A stretch of 64,000 bases of DNA, from contig NZ_CP163520.1 of assembly GCF_041080675.1 (NCBI RefSeq), positions 8,275,501 to 8,339,500 on the forward strand. Direction: 5' to 3'. Origin of the DNA: Streptomyces sp. cg36. GTDB lineage: Bacteria; Actinomycetota; Actinomycetes; Streptomycetales; Streptomycetaceae. The notes beneath the pieces are model-generated. The model was not told the origin of the DNA and did no database searches. It saw nothing but the letters and a program-made list of their open reading frames with translations. The number at the start of each line of letters is the position of its first letter. Within the stretch, counting starts at the first letter, position 1. The position numbers and the translations under genes are program-made. Of this stretch, positions 39,988 to 51,373 are shown piece by piece.

Positions 39988-40022
39988 CCGGGGGCCACCA
40001 CCTACGGGGTGGTGGCCCCCGG
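39988..40022 (+). terminator. Strong hairpin terminator after the STAS gene
   Basis: CCGGGGGCCACCACC, loop TACGG, GGTGGTGGCCCCCGG: a perfect 15-bp stem. It may serve both the STAS gene and the converging DUF4239 gene. The rest of 39835-40184 shows no gene. Confidence 0.85.
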
Positions 40023-40184
40023 CACCGAGTGCGGCTGCTCCCCGCTCGTCGTTGCGCTGTCCTAGGTGCTGGATGCGCCTGTGTGTGGGGCGAAGGCACG
40101 GATCGGCCCGAGAGATCCGATCCGTCGACAGCTCATCACAGGACCTCGCCCTCCTGTTCCAGCAGTTCGATCGGCTGGTGTGCT

Positions 40185-40935
40185 TCAGGGCAGGGTGGTG
40201 AAAACGCTGGTGTTGTCGGCGACTGTATGGCCGAAGGGGGAGTTGAAGTCCCAGATGAGGAAGAGCAGGAAAGCGATGAGGGCGCTGTAGAGGGCGGCCA
40301 GCAGCAGTTCGCGGCGGGTGCGGCTGATCTGCAAGGTGAAGATGAGTCCGATGGCGACCACGGCGCCGGTGATCAGCCCGAACCACACGACACCGGGCAT
40401 CGTGGGACCGGCGCTCTGTGCGCGGGCTGAGCGGGCGGTGTCGACGGCTGAGGCTTGGTCGAGCAGGGGTTGGTAGGACTGCATCTCGTGGTCGTTGCGC
40501 GGCTGGTAGGCGCTGAGGTCGGTGCGGAGCTTGGCGAGGAGGTCATCACCTTCGGGGGTGAGGTCGCCGGTGCGCAGCATGGTGCGCCACTCATGGTGTA
40601 CGACGTAGTCGGTGTAGGCGCCGACGTCGGCGCGCAGCCGGTCGCGGGCAACGGGTTCATAGACCTGGACGCGGCTGCTGATCTCGTGCAGTGCCTGTGC
40701 CTCCGCCAGAGCGGTGGCCTGGGCAGAGTTGCGGGCTTCCCAGACCCCGGCGATCGCCAGGCCGACCACGATCGCGTAGACGACTCCGATCATCATGGTC
40801 ATGTATTCGATGACGTCGGGGGTTTCGCTGGGATCCTCTGCCTTCCGATTCTGCGCTGGCGCCACAGGACGATGGCGAGCACGACGGCGCAGACGAAGGC
40901 CATCGCGAGGGCCAGGACGAGCCACGGGTTCACGT
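40185..40935 (-). pseudogene. DUF4239 membrane protein gene, frameshifted near its start
   Basis: A GTG at 40935 with GGAGAAG upstream opens a frame reading NPWLVLALAMAFVCAVVLAI and VLWRQRR, the first membrane helix of DUF4239 proteins. The rest of the family sequence continues in another frame: EDPSETPDVIEYMTMMIGVV, then ALHEISSRVQVYEPVARDRL and MPGVVWFGLITGAVVAIGLI to the stop at 40185. The shift lies near 40850-40860. If real, only an internal ATG at 40802 could restart. DUF4239 proteins are bestrophin-like membrane proteins of unknown role. A sequencing indel is possible. Confidence 0.65.
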
Positions 40936-40958
40936 CTTCTCCTGATCTGGTGCGGATG

Positions 40959-41636
40959 TCAGCGCGTCCCACCGCCCCCGGTGCTGCCCCCGCCGGCGCC
41001 GGAGCGTGAGCGCAGTGCGGCTGCGGCGAGGACGGCGGGAGCGGTGAGCAGCAGCATCGCGGTGACGGGTGAGGTGCCGGCGGCGGGCTTCTTTTTGCTG
41101 AGGGGGCGATAGGCCGGGATACGGCGGGTGCGCGGCGGCGGTGCGGGGGCCGCACTGGAGGCGGGGGGAGGCGGCGGGAGCGTGGCCGGGGCGTTGGGGT
41201 GGATAGCCGGTAGAGCGGGGGCCGGGCGCTGATGTGCGGGTGCTGGCGCGGGTGTTGGACGGGGGCGGGGCGGTGGAGTGCAGTAGAGACTGATACCGGC
41301 CTGGGCGTGGTCGGCGCGGACCTCGGCGTGGACGCAGCCGAAGTGCGATTCGACGGTGGCGCGCGGGCCGGTACGGGAGATGGTGACGTGCGGCAGCGGC
41401 AGGCGGCCTCGTCCTGGTGTCCAGGCGGGCAGGCGAGCTGCCGGGGGCAGGGCGGGGGAGTGTACGTGATGCGGTGCGGCCACGGATGGGGGCGGGAGGG
41501 GGAATGGTGTGGTTGCCCGGGCGTGGGTGGGCAGTGCGAGCGTGAAGAGTGCGGCAAGGGCCGCACTTGCGGACCACAAGGCCGGGGGCGGGACGGTCCT
41601 CGTGCGGTTCGGCGCGGCTGCGAGTGGGAGGTGCAC
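40959..41636 (-). CDS. Proline-rich exported protein with C-terminal membrane anchor
   Basis: 225 residues from a GTG preceded by GGAGAGG. Signal-like N-terminus (LWSASAALAALFTLALPTHA), a mature part of very high Pro content with a small cysteine-containing core (HFGCVHAEVRADHAQAGISL, then YC), and near the C-terminus SPVTAMLLLTAPAVLAAAAL followed by a Gly-rich basic end. The layout is that of wall- or membrane-anchored surface proteins. It lies between the polyprenyl synthase and the DUF4239 gene on the same strand. Confidence 0.55.
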   Translation of the reverse strand: MHLPLAAAPNRTRTVPPPALWSASAALAALFTLALPTHARATTPFPLPPPSVAAPHHVHSPALPPAARLPAWTPGRGRLPLPHVTISRTGPRATVESHFGCVHAEVRADHAQAGISLYCTPPPRPRPTPAPAPAHQRPAPALPAIHPNAPATLPPPPPASSAAPAPPPRTRRIPAYRPLSKKKPAAGTSPVTAMLLLTAPAVLAAAALRSRSGAGGGSTGGGGTR

Positions 41637-41765
41637 GTGCTGCTGTCCTCTCCGCGAGCGTGGGCAGCGGTGAGTTGCGGGCCACCGCTGCTGCTCGCTT
41701 CGTTCGGCATGACGTCTTGGGAGCGGGGAGGAGGCCGTGGGGTGCAGGGGCTCCGGGTGTGGGGT

Positions 41766-42851
41766 TCAGGAGGCCCGGTCGGTGGCGATGGCGATGAGGG
41801 CGTGCAGTTCTTGCACCGGCGCGCCGTGTTTCTCCACGTGCTGCAGGGCGAGCCGTGCCTGGCTTGCGAGTTCGTCGATGGTGTCCTCGACGGTCGCGCG
41901 GGCGCCCGTGGCATCGAGAATGGACCGGATGTGGTCGGCGGCCTGCTCGTCGAGGTCCGGGTTGCCGACCAAGGTGGTGAGCTCCCGGCTCTGATCGGCG
42001 GCGGCGCGCTGGTGAGCCAGGGCCAGCAGCATGGTGTGTTTGCCCTCACGCAGGTCGTCGAGCGTGGACTTGCCGGTGTGGTGCGGGTCGCCGAAGACAC
42101 CGAGAAGGTCGTCGCGGAGCTGGAACGCCTCACCCAGCGGGAGCGCGTAGCGGCTGAGCGCGGCGCAGAACGCCTCGTCGGCTCCGGCGAGGACCGCTCC
42201 GATGTGCAGGGGCCTTTCGACCGTGTACTTGGCTGTCTTGTAGCGTATGATCCTGCGGGCCGCGTCGAGGTCGTCGGCCGGGCCGAGGGGATTGAGAAGG
42301 TCGAGGTACTGGCCGTAAAGCACCTCTTCCCGCATCGCTTGCACGATCTGGCGCAGCTGGTTGAGGCAGGGCTTCGCGCAGGTCTCCGCGAAGAGCAGTT
42401 CATCGGCCCAGGCGAAGGCCATGTCTCCGACAAGAATGGCTTGGCTGATGCCGAGCCAGTCGGCGTCGCGTGCCCGGCTGCGGGCATGACGGGCGGTCAG
42501 TCGGCAGTGGACGGTGGGCTGGCCGCGCCGCAGGCTGCTCTGGTCGAGGATGTCGTCGTGGATCAGGGCAAAGGCGTGGAACAGTTCCAGTGACGCCGCC
42601 ACGCGGACTGCTTCGTCCTGCAGGGCGGGCAGGCCGCCCGCCGCCCGGTAGCCCGCCAGGCACAGGCGGGGACGCAGGCGTTTGCCGCCTGCGCCGAGGT
42701 ATCGGCCGAGTACTTCGCCCACTTCCAGTGGCAGACCGGCCGAGCGTGCCTGCCGCATTTTGTCGGCGAGAAAGGTGTCGAGCACGGTGTTGACGAGTGT
42801 CGCTGTCCCACTGCCCTGCCAGGCATGAGACGCATCGGAATCCGTGGTCAT
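41766..42851 (-). CDS. Polyprenyl synthetase (GGPP-synthase-like)
   Basis: 361 residues. The two aspartate-rich motifs that bind Mg-diphosphate are present: LIHDDILDQSSLRRGQPTVH (first) and AFQLRDDLLGVFGDPHHTGK (second), with GAGGKRLRPRLCL upstream that contacts isopentenyl diphosphate. It makes a C15-C20 prenyl diphosphate. No terpene cyclase or carotenoid genes follow. Upstream on the same strand, now beyond an insertion sequence, lies a broken family 2B encapsulin shell gene; polyprenyl synthases are known cargo-type partners of that shell family. ATG at 42851 chosen, since upstream in-frame codons are not protein-like. Confidence 0.88.
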   Translation of the reverse strand: MTTDSDASHAWQGSGTATLVNTVLDTFLADKMRQARSAGLPLEVGEVLGRYLGAGGKRLRPRLCLAGYRAAGGLPALQDEAVRVAASLELFHAFALIHDDILDQSSLRRGQPTVHCRLTARHARSRARDADWLGISQAILVGDMAFAWADELLFAETCAKPCLNQLRQIVQAMREEVLYGQYLDLLNPLGPADDLDAARRIIRYKTAKYTVERPLHIGAVLAGADEAFCAALSRYALPLGEAFQLRDDLLGVFGDPHHTGKSTLDDLREGKHTMLLALAHQRAAADQSRELTTLVGNPDLDEQAADHIRSILDATGARATVEDTIDELASQARLALQHVEKHGAPVQELHALIAIATDRAS

Positions 42852-43247
42852 TGCTTCCCTCAGCAGAGTGTTGGGGCCAGCGGAGTGCTGGCGGTAGCTG
42901 ACGGTTCGTCCGAGGTGCAGGCGGGTCGCACCGGGGCGGCACTGGAACACCGGGCCTACGACGGGGGCCGCTGCTTGGGCCCGGGGAGCAGGGCGGTACC
43001 GCCGCCTTACCCACTCGGCCCGGGCGGGGTGGGCAAGGGCGCTGTACGGCGGTCACGGGGCACTCCGGAGCAGGCGGGCGACCGGTGACGGTGAAGGCAC
43101 GCCAGGCGGCAGTGGCCCCCCGGGCTTGGAGGTGGTCCGCCCATATGGGCACGCCGCCTGGGATCGGTCCCCGCCCAGGGCACGGCAGCGGGCTGCCCCG
43201 TGGCCGCGTGTTCGTGCCTGCGGACAGCCCGCGCCCCTCGCTGAGTA
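42852..43247. other. Region between the polyprenyl synthase gene and IS copy 2
   Basis: About 400 bp with no gene. Before IS insertion this was presumably the intergenic region or the lost end of an encapsulin operon. No promoter is obvious. Confidence 0.35.
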
Positions 43248-43251
43248 CTAG

Positions 43252-44249
43252 GCGCTGTTTCTTGGATCTCCTGACAGGTGTGGGGTGTTGGGGTCACGCT
43301 GGCTGTATGGGTCGTGGGGATCTGACGAATGCGGAGTGGGATCGGCTGGAGGCGTTCTTGCCTCGTGGTGGTGCTCGTGGGGATCGGTGGAGTGATCACC
43401 GTCGGGTGATCAACGGGGTGTTGTACCGGGTGCGGACGGGTGTGCAGTGGCGGGATCTGCCTGAGCGGTTCGGGCCGTGGGAGACGGTTTATAAACGTCA
43501 TCGCCGCTGGTCAGCGGATGGGACGTGGACGATGCTGCTGTCGAAGGTGCAGGCTGCGGAGGACGCCGAAGGGCGGATCGACTGGGACGTGTCGGTGGAC
43601 TCCACCACGGTGCGGGCTCACCAGCATGCTGCCGGTGCGAAGAAGGAGCCGCCCGTTGTGATTCCTCAAAAGGGGGTCGCGTCGGGGACGAATCAGGTCG
43701 ATCCGGTTCTTCGGAAACTGGCCGTCCGGCTGGAGGAGGTGGTCAGATCGGCGAGTGCCTGGGACGTTCCCGCGGGGGTTTCACCACCAAAGTCCACCTC
43801 GCCGCCGACGGACGCTGCCGGCCCCTCTGTCTCGTCCTGACACCTGGTCACTACGGTGACGGCCCACAACTCGAGCGTGTGCTGGAGCGGTTGTCCGTGC
43901 CCCGTATCGGAGTTGGCCCCGCACCCGGCCCGACCGTGTCCTGGCGGACAAGGCCTACACCTCCCGCAAGAACCGCCGCTACCTGCGACGACGCGGGATC
44001 CGCCACACCATCCCCGAACGTCTTGACCAGCAGCGTCACCGGCACAACCGAGGCTCCCGGGGCGGCCGTCCCACCGGCTTCGACAGCGAGCGTTACAAGA
44101 AACGCAACACCGTCGAACGTGCCATCAACCGGCTCAAGGGCTTCCGTGCCGTCGCCACACGCTACGAGAAACGGGCCTACATCTACCTCGGCACCATCAC
44201 CCTCGCAGCCCTCACCATCTGGCTCCGAACATGATCCAAGAAACAGCGC
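43252..44249 (+). mobile_element. IS5-family insertion sequence, defective copy 2 (inverted relative to copy 1)
   Basis: 998 bp with the same perfect 17-bp inverted repeats (GCGCTGTTTCTTGGATC) and CTAG on both outer sides (43248-43251, 44250-44253). It is nearly identical to the 1006-bp copy at 22108-23113 but in the opposite orientation. The 8-bp size difference is two separate 4-nt deletions. It lies between the encapsulin relic and the polyprenyl synthase gene. Confidence 0.93.
43307..44234 (+). pseudogene. IS5-family transposase, broken by two 4-nt deletions
   Basis: The transposase starts normally (GRGDLTNAEWDRLEAFLPRG) and keeps the first catalytic Asp. Near 43725 one GTCC of a tandem GTCCGTCC is missing, shifting the frame from KLAVRPAGGGG to KLAVRLEEVV. 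Near 43917 CTAC is missing relative to copy 1 (GVGLPRTRP becomes GVGPAPGP), shifting it again. The second Asp and the Glu therefore lie in a third frame, and no functional enzyme can be made. One substitution (Gly to Asp in GGARGDRWSD) is also seen. Confidence 0.88.
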
Positions 44250-44276
44250 CTAGTCGCCCGCCCGGGGCCTGTACGG

Positions 44277-45213
44277 TCAGCGCCAGCGGCTGACTTCCAC
44301 GTTCTCCAGGACACCGAGGGCGTCCGGGACGAGGATCGCGGCGGAGTAGTAGGCGGTGACCGGGGAGGAGATGATCGCCTGCTCGTCGATGCCCATGAAA
44401 CGTACGGACAGGCTCGGTTCGATCTCGTCGGGGATACCGTCCTGGCGCAGGCCGATCATCCCCTGCTCGTCCTCACCCGTACGCATGCACAGGATCGAGG
44501 TGGTGCGCTGTGGCGGGACGGGGATCTTCCCGCACGGGAAGATGGGCGCGCCGCGCCACGCGGGGATCCGGTGTCCGTTGAAGTCCAGTGACTCCGGGAT
44601 CAGACCGCGTTTGTTGCACTCGCGGCCGAAGGCGGCGATGGCCCGCGGGTGGGCCCGGAAGAACTTGCTGATGGCCGGCCGCCAGGTCGATGGCCGCCTC
44701 ACCGTACTTGTTGGTGCGCTGCTCCGGGATCAGCGCGTATGCGGAGAGGTGTTCACTCAGTGAGGTCGCGCGCTCGGCCAGGTTGAGGACGTCCGCGCGG
44801 GTGAGCACCAGTAACTGGTCCTTGGTTCCGCCCAGCTCGGCCAGTACCTCGCCGGCGGCGTACTCGCGCTGTTCGCAGCGGTGCGCCGGCTCGGTCAGTG
44901 CCGAGCCGTCCTCGAATCCGCGTAACGCGGGCAGTTCCCCCAGCTCGGCCGGGATCACGGCCATCCGCTCGCCGGTCTGCACGAAGGAGATCTTGCCGTC
45001 ACCCACTGAGTAGCTCAGCCGCCGGTTGACCCGGTACGTACCGCCTTGGACGTGTACCCACGGCAGCATCCGCAGCAGCCACCGGGAGGTTATCTCCTGC
45101 ATCTGCGGGACGGATTTGGTGGTCGTCGCCAGATTGCGCGCGGCTGCGGTGCCAAGGCTCTGCTGTGCGCGTCCTTGTTCGGCAGGTGCTTGCGGGCGTA
45201 CCTCGACCGGCAT
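44277..45213 (-). pseudogene. Family 2B encapsulin shell protein (EshA/SrpI-like), internally deleted and frameshifted
   Basis: From an ATG at 45213 preceded by GGAGAAGGAACC, the frame reads [20 protein letters not shown], then [20 protein letters not shown] and [20 protein letters not shown], hallmark sequence of type 2 encapsulins. The cyclic-nucleotide-binding insertion is cut short ([20 protein letters not shown]), missing roughly 50 residues of its barrel. Near 44670-44690 a second deletion with frame change removes about 100 residues. Coding then resumes as [20 protein letters not shown] and runs to [20 protein letters not shown] and [17 protein letters not shown]. The shell cannot assemble from this gene. 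It stands upstream of a polyprenyl synthase gene, from which IS copy 2 separates it. Confidence 0.85.
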
Positions 45214-45834
45214 GAAGGTTCCTTCTCCGCTGGGGAAAGCAGACATTGACAGCGTGGCGAGACGGGACGAATTCTGCTAGTACCCGAAAGGGTTAATCGG
45301 TTGTGCGGCTTGCCGGAATTTCCACAGGTTCGCGGTCGGTAAACACTAATTTGCGGTTCACGCAGGGCTTCTGCGTGGTGTTCTAATGCGTGAATCGGTA
45401 GGGGTGATCTGGCTTGATCCGTCATTGATTCGTGTCATCATGTGGGACCCGGCCAAGGGTCAATGGGTGGCGCGCCACGCGAACGTATGGTGTGCGGGTG
45501 CTGGATCAGGGAAGACCTGCCTTCCTGCGGAAGCGGTCCGCAGGTGCAGCCAGTAACGCAAGTGCTTTCTTGGCGGATCTCCCTGTCCCGTACGCGGTGG
45601 CCTCAATTGCGGTGTTCGTGCAACCGGTTAGTGGATGACGGAGCCGGCACACCCGGACCGGGCGGGCACCCAGGGCCCGGCCTGCTGGTGCTGGCCGCTG
45701 GCCGAGTAATTGTCGAGACCCGTGGCCGCCACGTCCGGGTGAAGGCATCGCCGCCGCTGACCGCCGACTCCGAGCCACCCTGGTCAAGGCCGGCCTCACG
45801 CAGACGTGTTGTTCCGACGGGTAGCCGCTGGACG
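45214..45834. other. Promoter region of the encapsulin relic plus unassigned DNA
   Basis: 45250-45431 is AT-rich for this window and probably held the encapsulin promoter. From 45500 to 45834 the minus strand has open frames, one ending in EATAYGTGRSAKKALALLAA and FRRKAG, but no convincing start. It may be a degenerate gene following the three-helix-bundle gene. Confidence 0.3.
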
Positions 45835-46053
45835 TCAAACATCGCGTTCGCCTCGTTCGTCGTCAGGGAGCAGATCTTTGGCCCGGCGTTCCATGAGGAC
45901 AGGCAGGTACGTGCGCACGCGTGCGTATCTGAGCTCGTCGTACGCCGTCTGCACCGATACCCGTACGACCCTGTCGTCCAGGTGAGGGTGCGTCTTCATC
46001 AACCGCTCCACGACGAGGTGGATGAGCTGGGCATCCTCATCCGGTTCCGTCAT
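45835..46053 (-). CDS. Three-helix bundle dimerization domain protein
   Basis: 72 residues: QLIHLVVERLMKTHPHLDDR, then VVRVSVQTAYDELRYARVRT and YLPVLMERRAKDLLPDD. This is the small helical domain found in many actinobacterial proteins of unknown role, often encoded alone. A GAGG lies before the ATG at 46053. No partner gene is obvious. Confidence 0.7.
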   Translation of the reverse strand: MTEPDEDAQLIHLVVERLMKTHPHLDDRVVRVSVQTAYDELRYARVRTYLPVLMERRAKDLLPDDERGERDV

Positions 46054-46551
46054 CCGGCACCTCAGCCTTCCTTCGGATCAGGCCCTCCAGTCTCGTAGGG
46101 GTACGCCCGGCCGGTAAGTCGATCTTCCGCCGCAAAGTGCGGCTTGAGGTCGATGCGAACGGGCCGGAACCTGATGCGTCAGTTCCGGCGGCTGGCGGTG
46201 TCGCGTATCGCGCGCCGCGACGTCGGGCGCTCGGCCGCCCTCCGTGCGGGACGGGAACGCGGTGGGGGCGGCTGTCAGGTCGGCTGCCGCAGATCCCGGC
46301 TGGCCCGAAGACGCCCGCCCCGTCCGCCGCAGCCCGACGGGCGTCCCGGGCAGCACCCCCTGGATGCGCTGTGCGGCAACGTCCTGTTCCGTTTGGCGCC
46401 GGGGCGGTCCAACGCCCGGATCGCCGGGCAGAGCTGTCTGACCGAAGAGACGGTCAAGGCGTACGTCACCACCGACTCGCACTGTGCTGGGAGGGGGGCG
46501 GGACAACTGCCCGTACCGGCTCGCTCCGCGGGCCAGCGGCTCCTGCCCGCT
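46054..46551. other. Gene-poor stretch with LuxR-type HTH relic
   Basis: About 500 bp. The only recognisable content is the HTH remnant at 46360-46476; other frames are not coding-like. Confidence 0.4.
46360..46476 (+). pseudogene. Relic of a LuxR/NarL-type DNA-binding domain
   Basis: The plus strand reads NVLFRLAPGRSNARIAGQSC then LTEETVKAYVTT, which matches the pattern of LuxR-type HTH domains (VLRLVARGxSNAEIAxxLxLTExTVKxHV) with several substitutions. Receiver sequence upstream is degenerate and the C-terminal helix is lost. Confidence 0.5.
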
Positions 46552-47613
46552 TCACCCTGCGGTTGCCGTTGGACGGGGACGCGTGAGCCGGTTCGCGGCG
46601 AGCTTTTGCAGCAGGCTGAAGGCGAGGACGGGCAGCAGGACCTGCGGCCGGTCGGGCATCGCCGTAGTGATGAGCACGGCGCCCGCGCTGCTGTTGCTCA
46701 TGCCGCAGGCCAGGGTGACGGAGGTACGGGCGGGGGCGGCCAGCCGCAGGAGGTGGGCGGAGCAGCGGCCCCAGGTGAAGGACATGGCACAGGCGGCCGC
46801 TGCGGTACCCGCTGCCGCGAGGAGCAGCAGCGGGCGCGGGTGGATGAGGAACTGCCCGATCGCGCCCGCGGCGTTGACGTAGGTGAGCAGGATCGAGGCG
46901 AGGACCGCGGTCAGTGCTGCCAGGGACATCACCGTGGGCTTGGCGCGTTGGGGGAGCAGGAGGCGGCAGCCGATGCCCGCGGCGCAGGGGAGCAGGACGC
47001 CGGTGAGGGCGAAGCCGCTGCCGGTGCCGCGCGCGGCACCCGCCAGGCTCTGGGCGTAGTCCGTGTTCAGCAGGGGGGTGAGGGTGTTGATGGTGGCGGG
47101 GAGCGTGAACGGGCTGAGGGCGGTGGAGGCGAGGACCAGGCCCAGCATGGCGGGTTCGTCACCGCGGCCACCGCCGGTCCATACGGTGGCGCCGGCGGCC
47201 ACCGGCATGGAGACGGTGAGGATCATCGCGGCGATCATGCCGCTCCCGCCGTCGGAGTCGGGCGAGCAGCGCAGGGTGAGAGCGATGACGGGGATGACCA
47301 GCAGCGGCGCGGTGAGGTGAAGGATGAGGCCGGTCAGCAGGACGCGGGGTCGGCCCAGCAGCCGGGTCAGGGCGTGCGGGCAGGCGCGCAGCCCGGCCGT
47401 GAAGAGTACGGCGGCGAGCAGCAGTTGCGTGATGTTGAGGCCGACGCGCAGGTGCGCGCCGAGGGGAGCGGTGTGGGCGTGGCGCAGCCACAGGCCCGGG
47501 GCGGGCAGGGCCGCGGCGGCGAGGTAGGCACCGCAGGTGGCCCGTCCGAGCCGTCTGCGCAGGAAGTTCAGGGGCGCGGCGAGAGGGACTGCGGAGGGTG
47601 GCGCGGTCGGCAT
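46552..47613 (-). CDS. Bile acid:sodium symporter-like membrane protein
   Basis: 353 residues with about ten hydrophobic segments, including LRVGLNITQLLLAAVLFTAG, PLLVIPVIALTLRCSPDS, MILTVSMPVAAGATVW, VTLACGMSNSSAGAVLITTA. The GMxNS motif near the end and the overall order fit the BASS/SBF family, which moves organic anions with sodium. The substrate is unknown. A TCAGG direct repeat that recurs before the COG4705 gene lies 66 bp upstream of its ATG, suggesting control by the adjacent two-component system. Confidence 0.7.
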   Translation of the reverse strand: MPTAPPSAVPLAAPLNFLRRRLGRATCGAYLAAAALPAPGLWLRHAHTAPLGAHLRVGLNITQLLLAAVLFTAGLRACPHALTRLLGRPRVLLTGLILHLTAPLLVIPVIALTLRCSPDSDGGSGMIAAMILTVSMPVAAGATVWTGGGRGDEPAMLGLVLASTALSPFTLPATINTLTPLLNTDYAQSLAGAARGTGSGFALTGVLLPCAAGIGCRLLLPQRAKPTVMSLAALTAVLASILLTYVNAAGAIGQFLIHPRPLLLLAAAGTAAAACAMSFTWGRCSAHLLRLAAPARTSVTLACGMSNSSAGAVLITTAMPDRPQVLLPVLAFSLLQKLAANRLTRPRPTATAG

Positions 47614-50376: not shown

Positions 50377-51213
50377 TCAGGCGCTGAGGGCGCCGGTTGC
50401 GAGCAGGCCGAAGAGCAGGACTCCGGCGGCGATCCGGTAGGTGACGAAGGCGTTGAAGGAGTGCTTGGCGACGAACTTGAGGAGCCAGGCGATCGAGGCG
50501 TAGGCGACGACGAAGGACACCGCGGTGCCGACGACCAGCGGGAGGGTGTCGACGCCGGCGCCGATGGCGTCCTTGAGCTCGTACAGGCCCGCGCCGGTCA
50601 GGGCGGGGATGCCGAGGAAGAAGGAAAGGCGGGTGGCGGCGACGCGGTCGAGGTCGAGGATGAGGCCGGTCGAGATGGTGGCGCCGGAGCGCGAGAAGCC
50701 GGGGAAGAGCAGGGCGAGGATCTGCGAACAGCCCACCAGCATGGCGTCCTTGAGGGTGGTGTCGTCCTCGCCGCGTTTGTGGCGGCCCATCTGGTCGGCG
50801 GCCCACATGAGGCCGCTGCCGACGATCAGGGAGGCGGCCACCACCCACAGCGACGCCAGCGCGCCCTCGATGAGGGGTTTGGCGGCCAGTCCCACGGCCA
50901 CGATGGGAATGGTGGCGTAGATGACCCACCAGGCGAACCTGTAGTCGTGGTGGTGGCGCTCCTCGCGGTGGGCCAGGCCGCGCCCCCAGGCCCGCACGAT
51001 CCGCACGATGTCCTTGAAGAAGTACACCAGTACCGCGGCGATGGCCCCGACCTGGATGACGGCGGTGAAGGCGACGACGGCCTTGTCGTCCACCGGAATG
51101 CCCATCAGCCCTTCGGTGATCTTCAGGTGTCCGGTGGAGGAGACCGGCAGGAATTCGGTGACCCCTTCGACGATGCCGAGGACTGTTGCCTGCCCGATGT
51201 CGATGGTGCTCAA
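50377..51213 (-). CDS. uppP: Undecaprenyl-diphosphatase UppP (BacA)
   Basis: 278 residues, the usual length. It dephosphorylates undecaprenyl diphosphate at the membrane, recycling the lipid carrier for peptidoglycan, and confers bacitracin tolerance. Signatures: GIVEGVTEFLPVSSTGHLKI, with the catalytic glutamates, and LFPGFSRSGATISTGLILDL with the PGxSRSGxT phosphate loop. Eight hydrophobic segments follow the family plan. The TTG at 51213 places the first strand as in homologues; no better start is seen. A BlaI-type palindrome lies between it and divergent blaI, suggesting control by cell-wall stress. Confidence 0.92.
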   Translation of the reverse strand: MSTIDIGQATVLGIVEGVTEFLPVSSTGHLKITEGLMGIPVDDKAVVAFTAVIQVGAIAAVLVYFFKDIVRIVRAWGRGLAHREERHHHDYRFAWWVIYATIPIVAVGLAAKPLIEGALASLWVVAASLIVGSGLMWAADQMGRHKRGEDDTTLKDAMLVGCSQILALLFPGFSRSGATISTGLILDLDRVAATRLSFFLGIPALTGAGLYELKDAIGAGVDTLPLVVGTAVSFVVAYASIAWLLKFVAKHSFNAFVTYRIAAGVLLFGLLATGALSA

Positions 51214-51373
51214 TTCGTCCGTCCCTGAAAGGTTGGGTCCGATGCGATGGCGGTGGAGCGGTGGGCCGGCCGGTGCGCCTGTGCCGCCGTCCGCGAAGAG
51301 CACGGGATTCCTGTCGTCGCCCCGCGAACGGCGCGGGGCACGGGGGACAGCAGGCATGGCAGACTCGGGGAAG

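Follow-up and report, generated by a model that had tools for sequence, protein, structure and literature searches.

Results and Discussion

Gene content of the locus

We analyzed a 64,000-nucleotide stretch of the genome of Streptomyces sp. cg36, hereafter the window (8.28–8.34 Mb of the 8.60-Mb contig in the 9.02-Mb, three-contig genome G000), in which a broken family 2B encapsulin shell gene, an insertion sequence (IS), and a polyprenyl synthase gene lie in succession. Positions are window coordinates unless another locus is named. The locus was compared with L163, a locus fetched from another genome of the same genus, G339, which carries a fuller version of the same gene set.

The shell pseudogene (44277–45246, minus strand) has two possible starts, 45246 or 45213. 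Its N-terminal frame (45246–44473), which stays open for 257 codons, matched positions 1–121 of NF041163, the NCBIfam profile of family 2B shells (encap_f2b; 192.8 bits, E = 1.2e-56), and its C-terminal frame (44702–44277) matched positions 323–450 (221.4 bits, E = 2.4e-65) as well as PF19307. As expected for fragments, neither piece reached the 400 bits required of the whole protein; a genome-wide search returned a weak third stretch at profile positions 167–220 (E = 8.5e-6). The best Protein Data Bank matches of both pieces were 9bhu, 9bje, and 9bix. These entries, 470–477 residues long, carry nucleotide-binding or Crp/Fnr names in the deposition; we infer that they are 2B shells. The intact L163 shell of 471 residues has a cyclic nucleotide monophosphate (cNMP)-binding domain (PF00027) at residues 117–204 and an SrpI-like part at residues 220–468. 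Relative to it, the window gene lacks 165 bp (55 codons) in frame at approximately residues 134–190, inside the cNMP-binding domain (junction 44811–44853), and 311 bp out of frame at approximately residues 238–341, in the SrpI-like (HK97) part (junction 44669–44682), costing the shell domain about 104 residues. Most of the cNMP-binding domain is deleted from the N-terminal frame, for which a Pfam search found no domain, and with the two deletions the gene holds no complete reading frame for a shell protein. The initial annotation had described a decayed shell gene that kept its signature termini and had lost about 50 and about 100 residues. The profile matches at both ends and the alignment with L163 agreed with this description and with both sizes; the frame break made by the second deletion had not been mentioned and is added here.

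The synthase gene (41766–42851, minus strand) is a 361-codon frame without a stop, on the same strand as the shell pseudogene, as annotated initially, and in the sense of an open reading frame the enzyme has survived. Its product matched the polyprenyl_synt domain PF00348 (E = 7e-54), beginning at residue 46, and contains DDILD and RDDLLGVFGD, which we take to be the two aspartate-rich motifs of polyprenyl synthases; on this domain and these motifs it was classed as a geranylgeranyl diphosphate (GGPP)-type synthase. A search of 5.8 billion proteins for near twins gave at least 171 matches at E ≤ 1e-90 among 8000 candidates scored. In the best 120 of the 171, the highest non-self identity was 61%, and the 69%-identical G339 synthase was absent among the matches listed, probably since it is read there within an 840-residue frame.

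Between the two genes lies a 1.0-kb IS5-family element (43248–44253, plus strand, CTAG at both ends included) with its transposase in two frames, in agreement with the 1-kb IS annotated initially. Shell pseudogene, synthase gene, and element all stand at the coordinates first assigned to them, and the evidence for each exceeds chance level. The first frame scored 129.7 bits against NF033580 (cut-off 110) and the second 46.2 bits, and the transposase also matched PF13340. The element had 12 matches in G000, six of them copies at 99–100% identity and the other six shorter or weaker. In its transposase profile, inverted ends, and several near copies it is like the IS5-family insertion sequences of Streptomyces, and nothing unusual was seen in it; relatives at 85–87% identity occur on Streptomyces plasmids. 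All six near-identical copies (L051–L056; 1006, 1011, 1009, 1008, 1014, and 1009 bp) have CTAG at both ends, and their reading frames differ. The copies differ mainly by small indels, which may mark uncorrected long-read errors in assembly repeats.

A fuller cluster in another Streptomyces genome

By synthase DNA, G339 was the nearest other genome (75% identity; the next, 72%) of the 392 genomes of the genus searched, 19 of which, G000 itself included, matched at 1e-60 or better. On a single strand of L163 we found, in order, a bestrophin-like gene, ispH, the synthase gene, ispG, dxs, and the intact shell gene, with short gaps between them. The L163 synthase is 69% identical to the window synthase over 342 residues. 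The bestrophin-like gene, at 40185–40925 (minus strand) in the window (PF14023, E = 7.8e-52; 79% identity over 216 residues), is an anchor common to both loci, and five collinear blastn blocks join them: 40190–41272, 41840–42774, 44275–44670, 44672–44811, and 44840–45168. The blocks stop at 41272 and resume at 41840, and ispH, whose site in L163 corresponds to 41273–41765, is missing from the window; the IS sits where L163 carries dxs and ispG. The spacer of about 400 bp (396 bp, 42852–43247) between the IS and the synthase gene had no match in L163, and a search of the genome returned only itself.

When 40001–46600 was searched by tblastn (word size 2, unmasked) for remains of the dxs, ispG, and ispH genes, no match was better than E = 0.033. 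A tblastx search for the same remains gave noise from GC-rich sequence and was discarded. G000 has two dxs, two ispG, and one ispH genes and G339 has three, three, and two, the extra set of G339 being the copies in L163. Because G000 has one copy fewer of each gene, the missing genes, which belong to the methylerythritol phosphate (MEP) pathway, are not hidden elsewhere in the cg36 genome.

The L163 stretch of 5.6 kb from shell to synthase was then searched against the genus, with 371 of the 392 genomes scored by their best match. Among the matches listed, the shell and the cassette were spanned in G339 alone, and every other match covered just one of the two. Of 384 plasmid records with a match to the cluster, none reached 80% query coverage in one place, and the best 20 of the 384 were matches to the IS only.

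Beyond the L163 shell, open reading frames (ORFs) resembling transposase remains were seen. About 4 kb past the shell, on the other strand (L163:15134–19500), there is a terpene synthase (PF19086), accompanied by the first part of a geranyl diphosphate methyltransferase gene, so that by its sequence a gene pair of the 2-methylisoborneol type stands close to the shell–MEP cluster of G339. Separately, a conserved stretch of 13 residues near the shell N terminus (window 45159–45130, minus strand) is like the GPTGLGT-type motif of terpene cyclase cargo described in passages of PMC8346489, and the L163 terpene synthase (L163:18295, plus strand) shows PSGLGT, also GPTGLGT-like; the likeness of the shell stretch may be due to chance.

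Relaxed constraint on the shell gene

Over the 284 retained shell codons, with the shell of another cg36 locus (L042) as the third row, the window gene had 25 amino-acid changes of its own, L163 had 3, and L042 had 7, and 6 sites differed in all three. Silent changes over the same codons numbered 41 in the window and 25 in L163 (Fisher p = 0.012 against the amino-acid changes). This excess of amino-acid change on the window branch is a sign of relaxed constraint. Synonymous divergence between the window and L163 was 0.63 for the shell, 0.72 for the synthase, and 0.54 for the bestrophin-like gene, and the ratios of nonsynonymous to synonymous divergence (dN/dS) were 0.12 (retained codons), 0.35, and 0.32, respectively.

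The shortened gene could in principle be alive and encode a truncated product with another role: the first deletion is in frame, the N-terminal frame remains open, and the dN/dS of the retained codons is still 0.12. We consider this highly improbable, as the second deletion breaks the frame with the loss of about 104 shell-domain residues and the branch shows the excess described above, while the low dN/dS also fits a gene that died recently after long constraint.

Other shells and synthases of this type

Four further 2B shell loci were found in G000: L039 (0.12 Mb) and L040 (7.06 Mb), each with a whole frame, and L041 (0.70 Mb) and L042 (2.73 Mb), each with a split frame. The genes downstream encode a geranyl diphosphate methyltransferase (L039 and L041), a SufS-type cysteine desulfurase (L040), and a polyprenyl synthase (L042). 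The latter passed NF041169, the profile of family 2 cargo polyprenyl transferases (PTs), with 497.6 bits, and is of a type that lay directly downstream of the shell at 25 of 29 shell loci from other genomes (L010–L038), one of the four exceptions (L020) being a short contig end. Because the synthase of L042 is of this usual downstream type, the ordinary Streptomyces shell–PT pair of cg36 is that at 2.73 Mb, and the pair in the window is something else.

A simpler account of the window would hold that a shell gene and its native cargo synthase were split by one IS, with no other loss. Shell–PT pairs are common in Actinobacteria according to passages of PMC8346489, the usual partner is directly downstream in most shell loci, and the shell and the synthase are the recognisable survivors of the set, on one strand with the IS between them. 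The usual PT is of another type, however, with 33% identity to the window synthase, and in G339 dxs and ispG stand between shell and synthase, the matching copies being missing from G000. Already disfavoured given L163, this account is improbable.

The shell genes of L041 (L041:7134–8503) and L042 (L042:7677–9046) belong to different operons with dissimilar flanking sequence, yet they share 1366 of 1372 aligned positions. The flanks of L042 were approximately 83–91% identical to G339, whereas over the retained codons its shell reached only 82%, and the methyltransferase operon of L041 has a PT-type shell with no terpene synthase between. These comparisons suggest that encapsulin operons have undergone gene conversion or exchanged shells. 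The frame of each of the two shells is broken by a single small indel, perhaps through assembly error in repeats. A genome-wide loss of PT-type shells, to which the split frames of L041 and L042 might have belonged, was set aside in view of their 99.6% mutual identity and of the small indels by which the IS copies also differ, which suggest, but do not prove, such assembly error.

To place the window synthase, the 80 nearest named loci were kept of 380 relatives found. At least one 2B shell was present in the flanks examined of 23 of the 80, namely 23 of 25 loci from Streptosporangiales and none of 49 from Streptomyces, in 30 of which both flanks were near full length. Of 13 synthase loci fetched from the genus, one (L163) had a shell. 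A tree of 93 synthases placed those of the window and L163 as sisters (SH-aLRT 100) within a group of nine (99), of which the remaining seven had no shell in the stretch examined; by a quick method, the shell label required three changes on this tree counting the L042 PT and two without it. Since the tree places both among shell-less relatives, the shell link of the window and L163 looks separate in origin from that of Streptosporangiales.

The Streptosporangiales loci (e.g., L121, L130, and L148) resemble the window in having an approximately 50%-identical synthase beside 2B shells, some with ispH. They differ in having mostly two 2B shells and a terpene cyclase of a 727-residue type, which we take to be geosmin-synthase-like, and in the apparently separate origin of the shell link. 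The nearest synthases after L163 belong to Streptomyces dxs–ispG–synthase cassettes (e.g., L166, L167, L172, and L177), in which the same cassette is whole or partial; these differ in having no shell in the flanks examined and, in some, P450 or terpene-cyclase-like neighbours.

The rarity of the link in Streptomyces also speaks for chance neighbourhood, in which a duplicated shell gene decays beside a synthase of secondary metabolism and the two were never one functional unit, the more so as 2B shells were found in 147 of 150 genomes of the genus, often in multiple copies. On the other hand, in L163 the whole shell gene, dxs, ispG, the synthase gene, and ispH share one strand with short gaps, shell and synthase are alike in synonymous divergence, and a related synthase stands beside 2B shells in nearly all the Streptosporangiales loci. 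We regard chance neighbourhood as unlikely. The odds of the alternatives overlap in part, in that the genes could have been joined by chance and still have decayed afterwards.

Proposed history of the cluster

We conclude, with a probability of roughly 85%, that the locus is what is left of a co-directional cluster of 2B shell, dxs, ispG, GGPP-type synthase, and ispH genes that is largely kept in G339, and that its dxs, ispG, and ispH genes have been lost by deletion, its shell gene has decayed, and the IS has come to lie in the dxs–ispG gap. The initial annotation had taken the locus for one operon split by an IS. A single co-directional cluster is supported by G339, which carries the shell and a related synthase with dxs and ispG between them; three genes of this fuller set are missing from the window, and the locus is more than a pair divided by the IS. 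The pairing of this synthase with an encapsulin likewise held for G339 and, more distantly, for Streptosporangiales, so that the suggestion that relatives might never pair them fails, while the 49 Streptomyces loci among the nearest 80, none with a 2B shell in the flanks examined, speak against the pairing. A compartment system in decay describes the window locus but not the organism as a whole, in which 2B shells are encoded at four other loci.

Several observations weigh against the remnant-cluster interpretation. Among the matches listed, the fuller cluster was found in one of 371 genomes scored (G339), and ispG and ispH of G339 are each split between two frames, so that this cluster may be decaying too or may be badly sequenced. 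The interpretation does not account for the 396-bp spacer beside the synthase gene. Conversion may have overwritten the L042 shell, in which case the 25-to-3 count of amino-acid changes could be distorted. The shell tree grouped L163 with L041 and L042 (support 90/63), with the window outside, although a clade of the window and L163 shells was not rejected (p-AU = 0.206); this tree had been intended to show the two shells as sisters and failed to do so. Finally, the window synthase reached 251.4 bits on NF041169, against the cut-off of 450.

Judged by this score, the synthase is not of the standard Streptomyces encapsulin cargo type, contrary to what was implied initially; the usual family 2 cargo type was found beside its own shell at 2.73 Mb. 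Passages of PMC8346489 describe a long disordered N-terminal domain of 50–100 residues in family 2 cargo PTs. A synthase of the window type is encoded with an intact 2B shell in L163, with dxs and ispG between. The cargo cut-off was missed and the first 52 residues were unmatched by the cargo profile, and the synthase may or may not have been encapsulated cargo.

In the ancestor, for which the gene order of G339 may serve as a model, the cluster would presumably have been transcribed as an operon. DXS, IspG, and IspH, which catalyze three steps of the MEP pathway, would have raised the supply of isopentenyl diphosphate (IPP) and dimethylallyl diphosphate (DMAPP), and the synthase would have condensed IPP and DMAPP to a longer prenyl diphosphate, perhaps in or on the shell, which may have enclosed it. 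The lineage of the window has lost dxs, ispG, and ispH, its shell gene has acquired two deletions and excess amino-acid changes, and the IS5-family element occupies the former site of dxs and ispG. The element may have caused the loss of these genes or arrived later; with CTAG at both ends of every element copy, the target site does not favour either order of events. The window synthase may still use general precursors to make a prenyl diphosphate, with no shell supplied by its own locus.

The general plan of a shell–PT system with precursor genes is already known from passages of PMC8346489, according to which PT systems often encode terpenoid precursor genes. The family 2B encapsulin–PT operons of Actinobacteria described there are alike in combining a 2B shell gene with a polyprenyl synthase and, often, precursor genes; the window differs from standard Streptomyces PT operons in its synthase of another subfamily, its broken shell, and its lost precursor genes. 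Judging by titles and opening lines of abstracts, none of the listed encapsulin papers that mention pseudogenes dealt with a locus of this kind, though this does not imply that none has been published. We tentatively suggest, at somewhat less than even odds, that in one small Streptomyces group, apart from Streptosporangiales, a 2B shell joined a ready-made cassette of MEP genes and GGPP synthase, forming a shell-linked isoprenoid supply module subject to fast gain and loss, of which shell, dxs, and synthase are still open in the G339 lineage, where ispG and ispH have split frames, and only the synthase is left in the window lineage. G339 and the window are a fuller and a reduced member of a pair that illustrates the breakdown of a family 2B encapsulin cluster, and they offer a case of a shell gene joined to precursor-supply genes on a synthase branch otherwise without a shell. 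A comparison of the two strains would be useful in asking if the shell is of any importance to the synthase.

Neighbouring genes

None of the four ORFs upstream of the shell pseudogene (45442–46583) had a Pfam match. At 50377–51357 (minus strand), about 5 kb from the shell remnant, there is a BacA-type gene (PF02673), which presumably encodes an undecaprenyl diphosphate phosphatase of isoprenoid phosphate metabolism; its position near the shell remnant is probably a coincidence.

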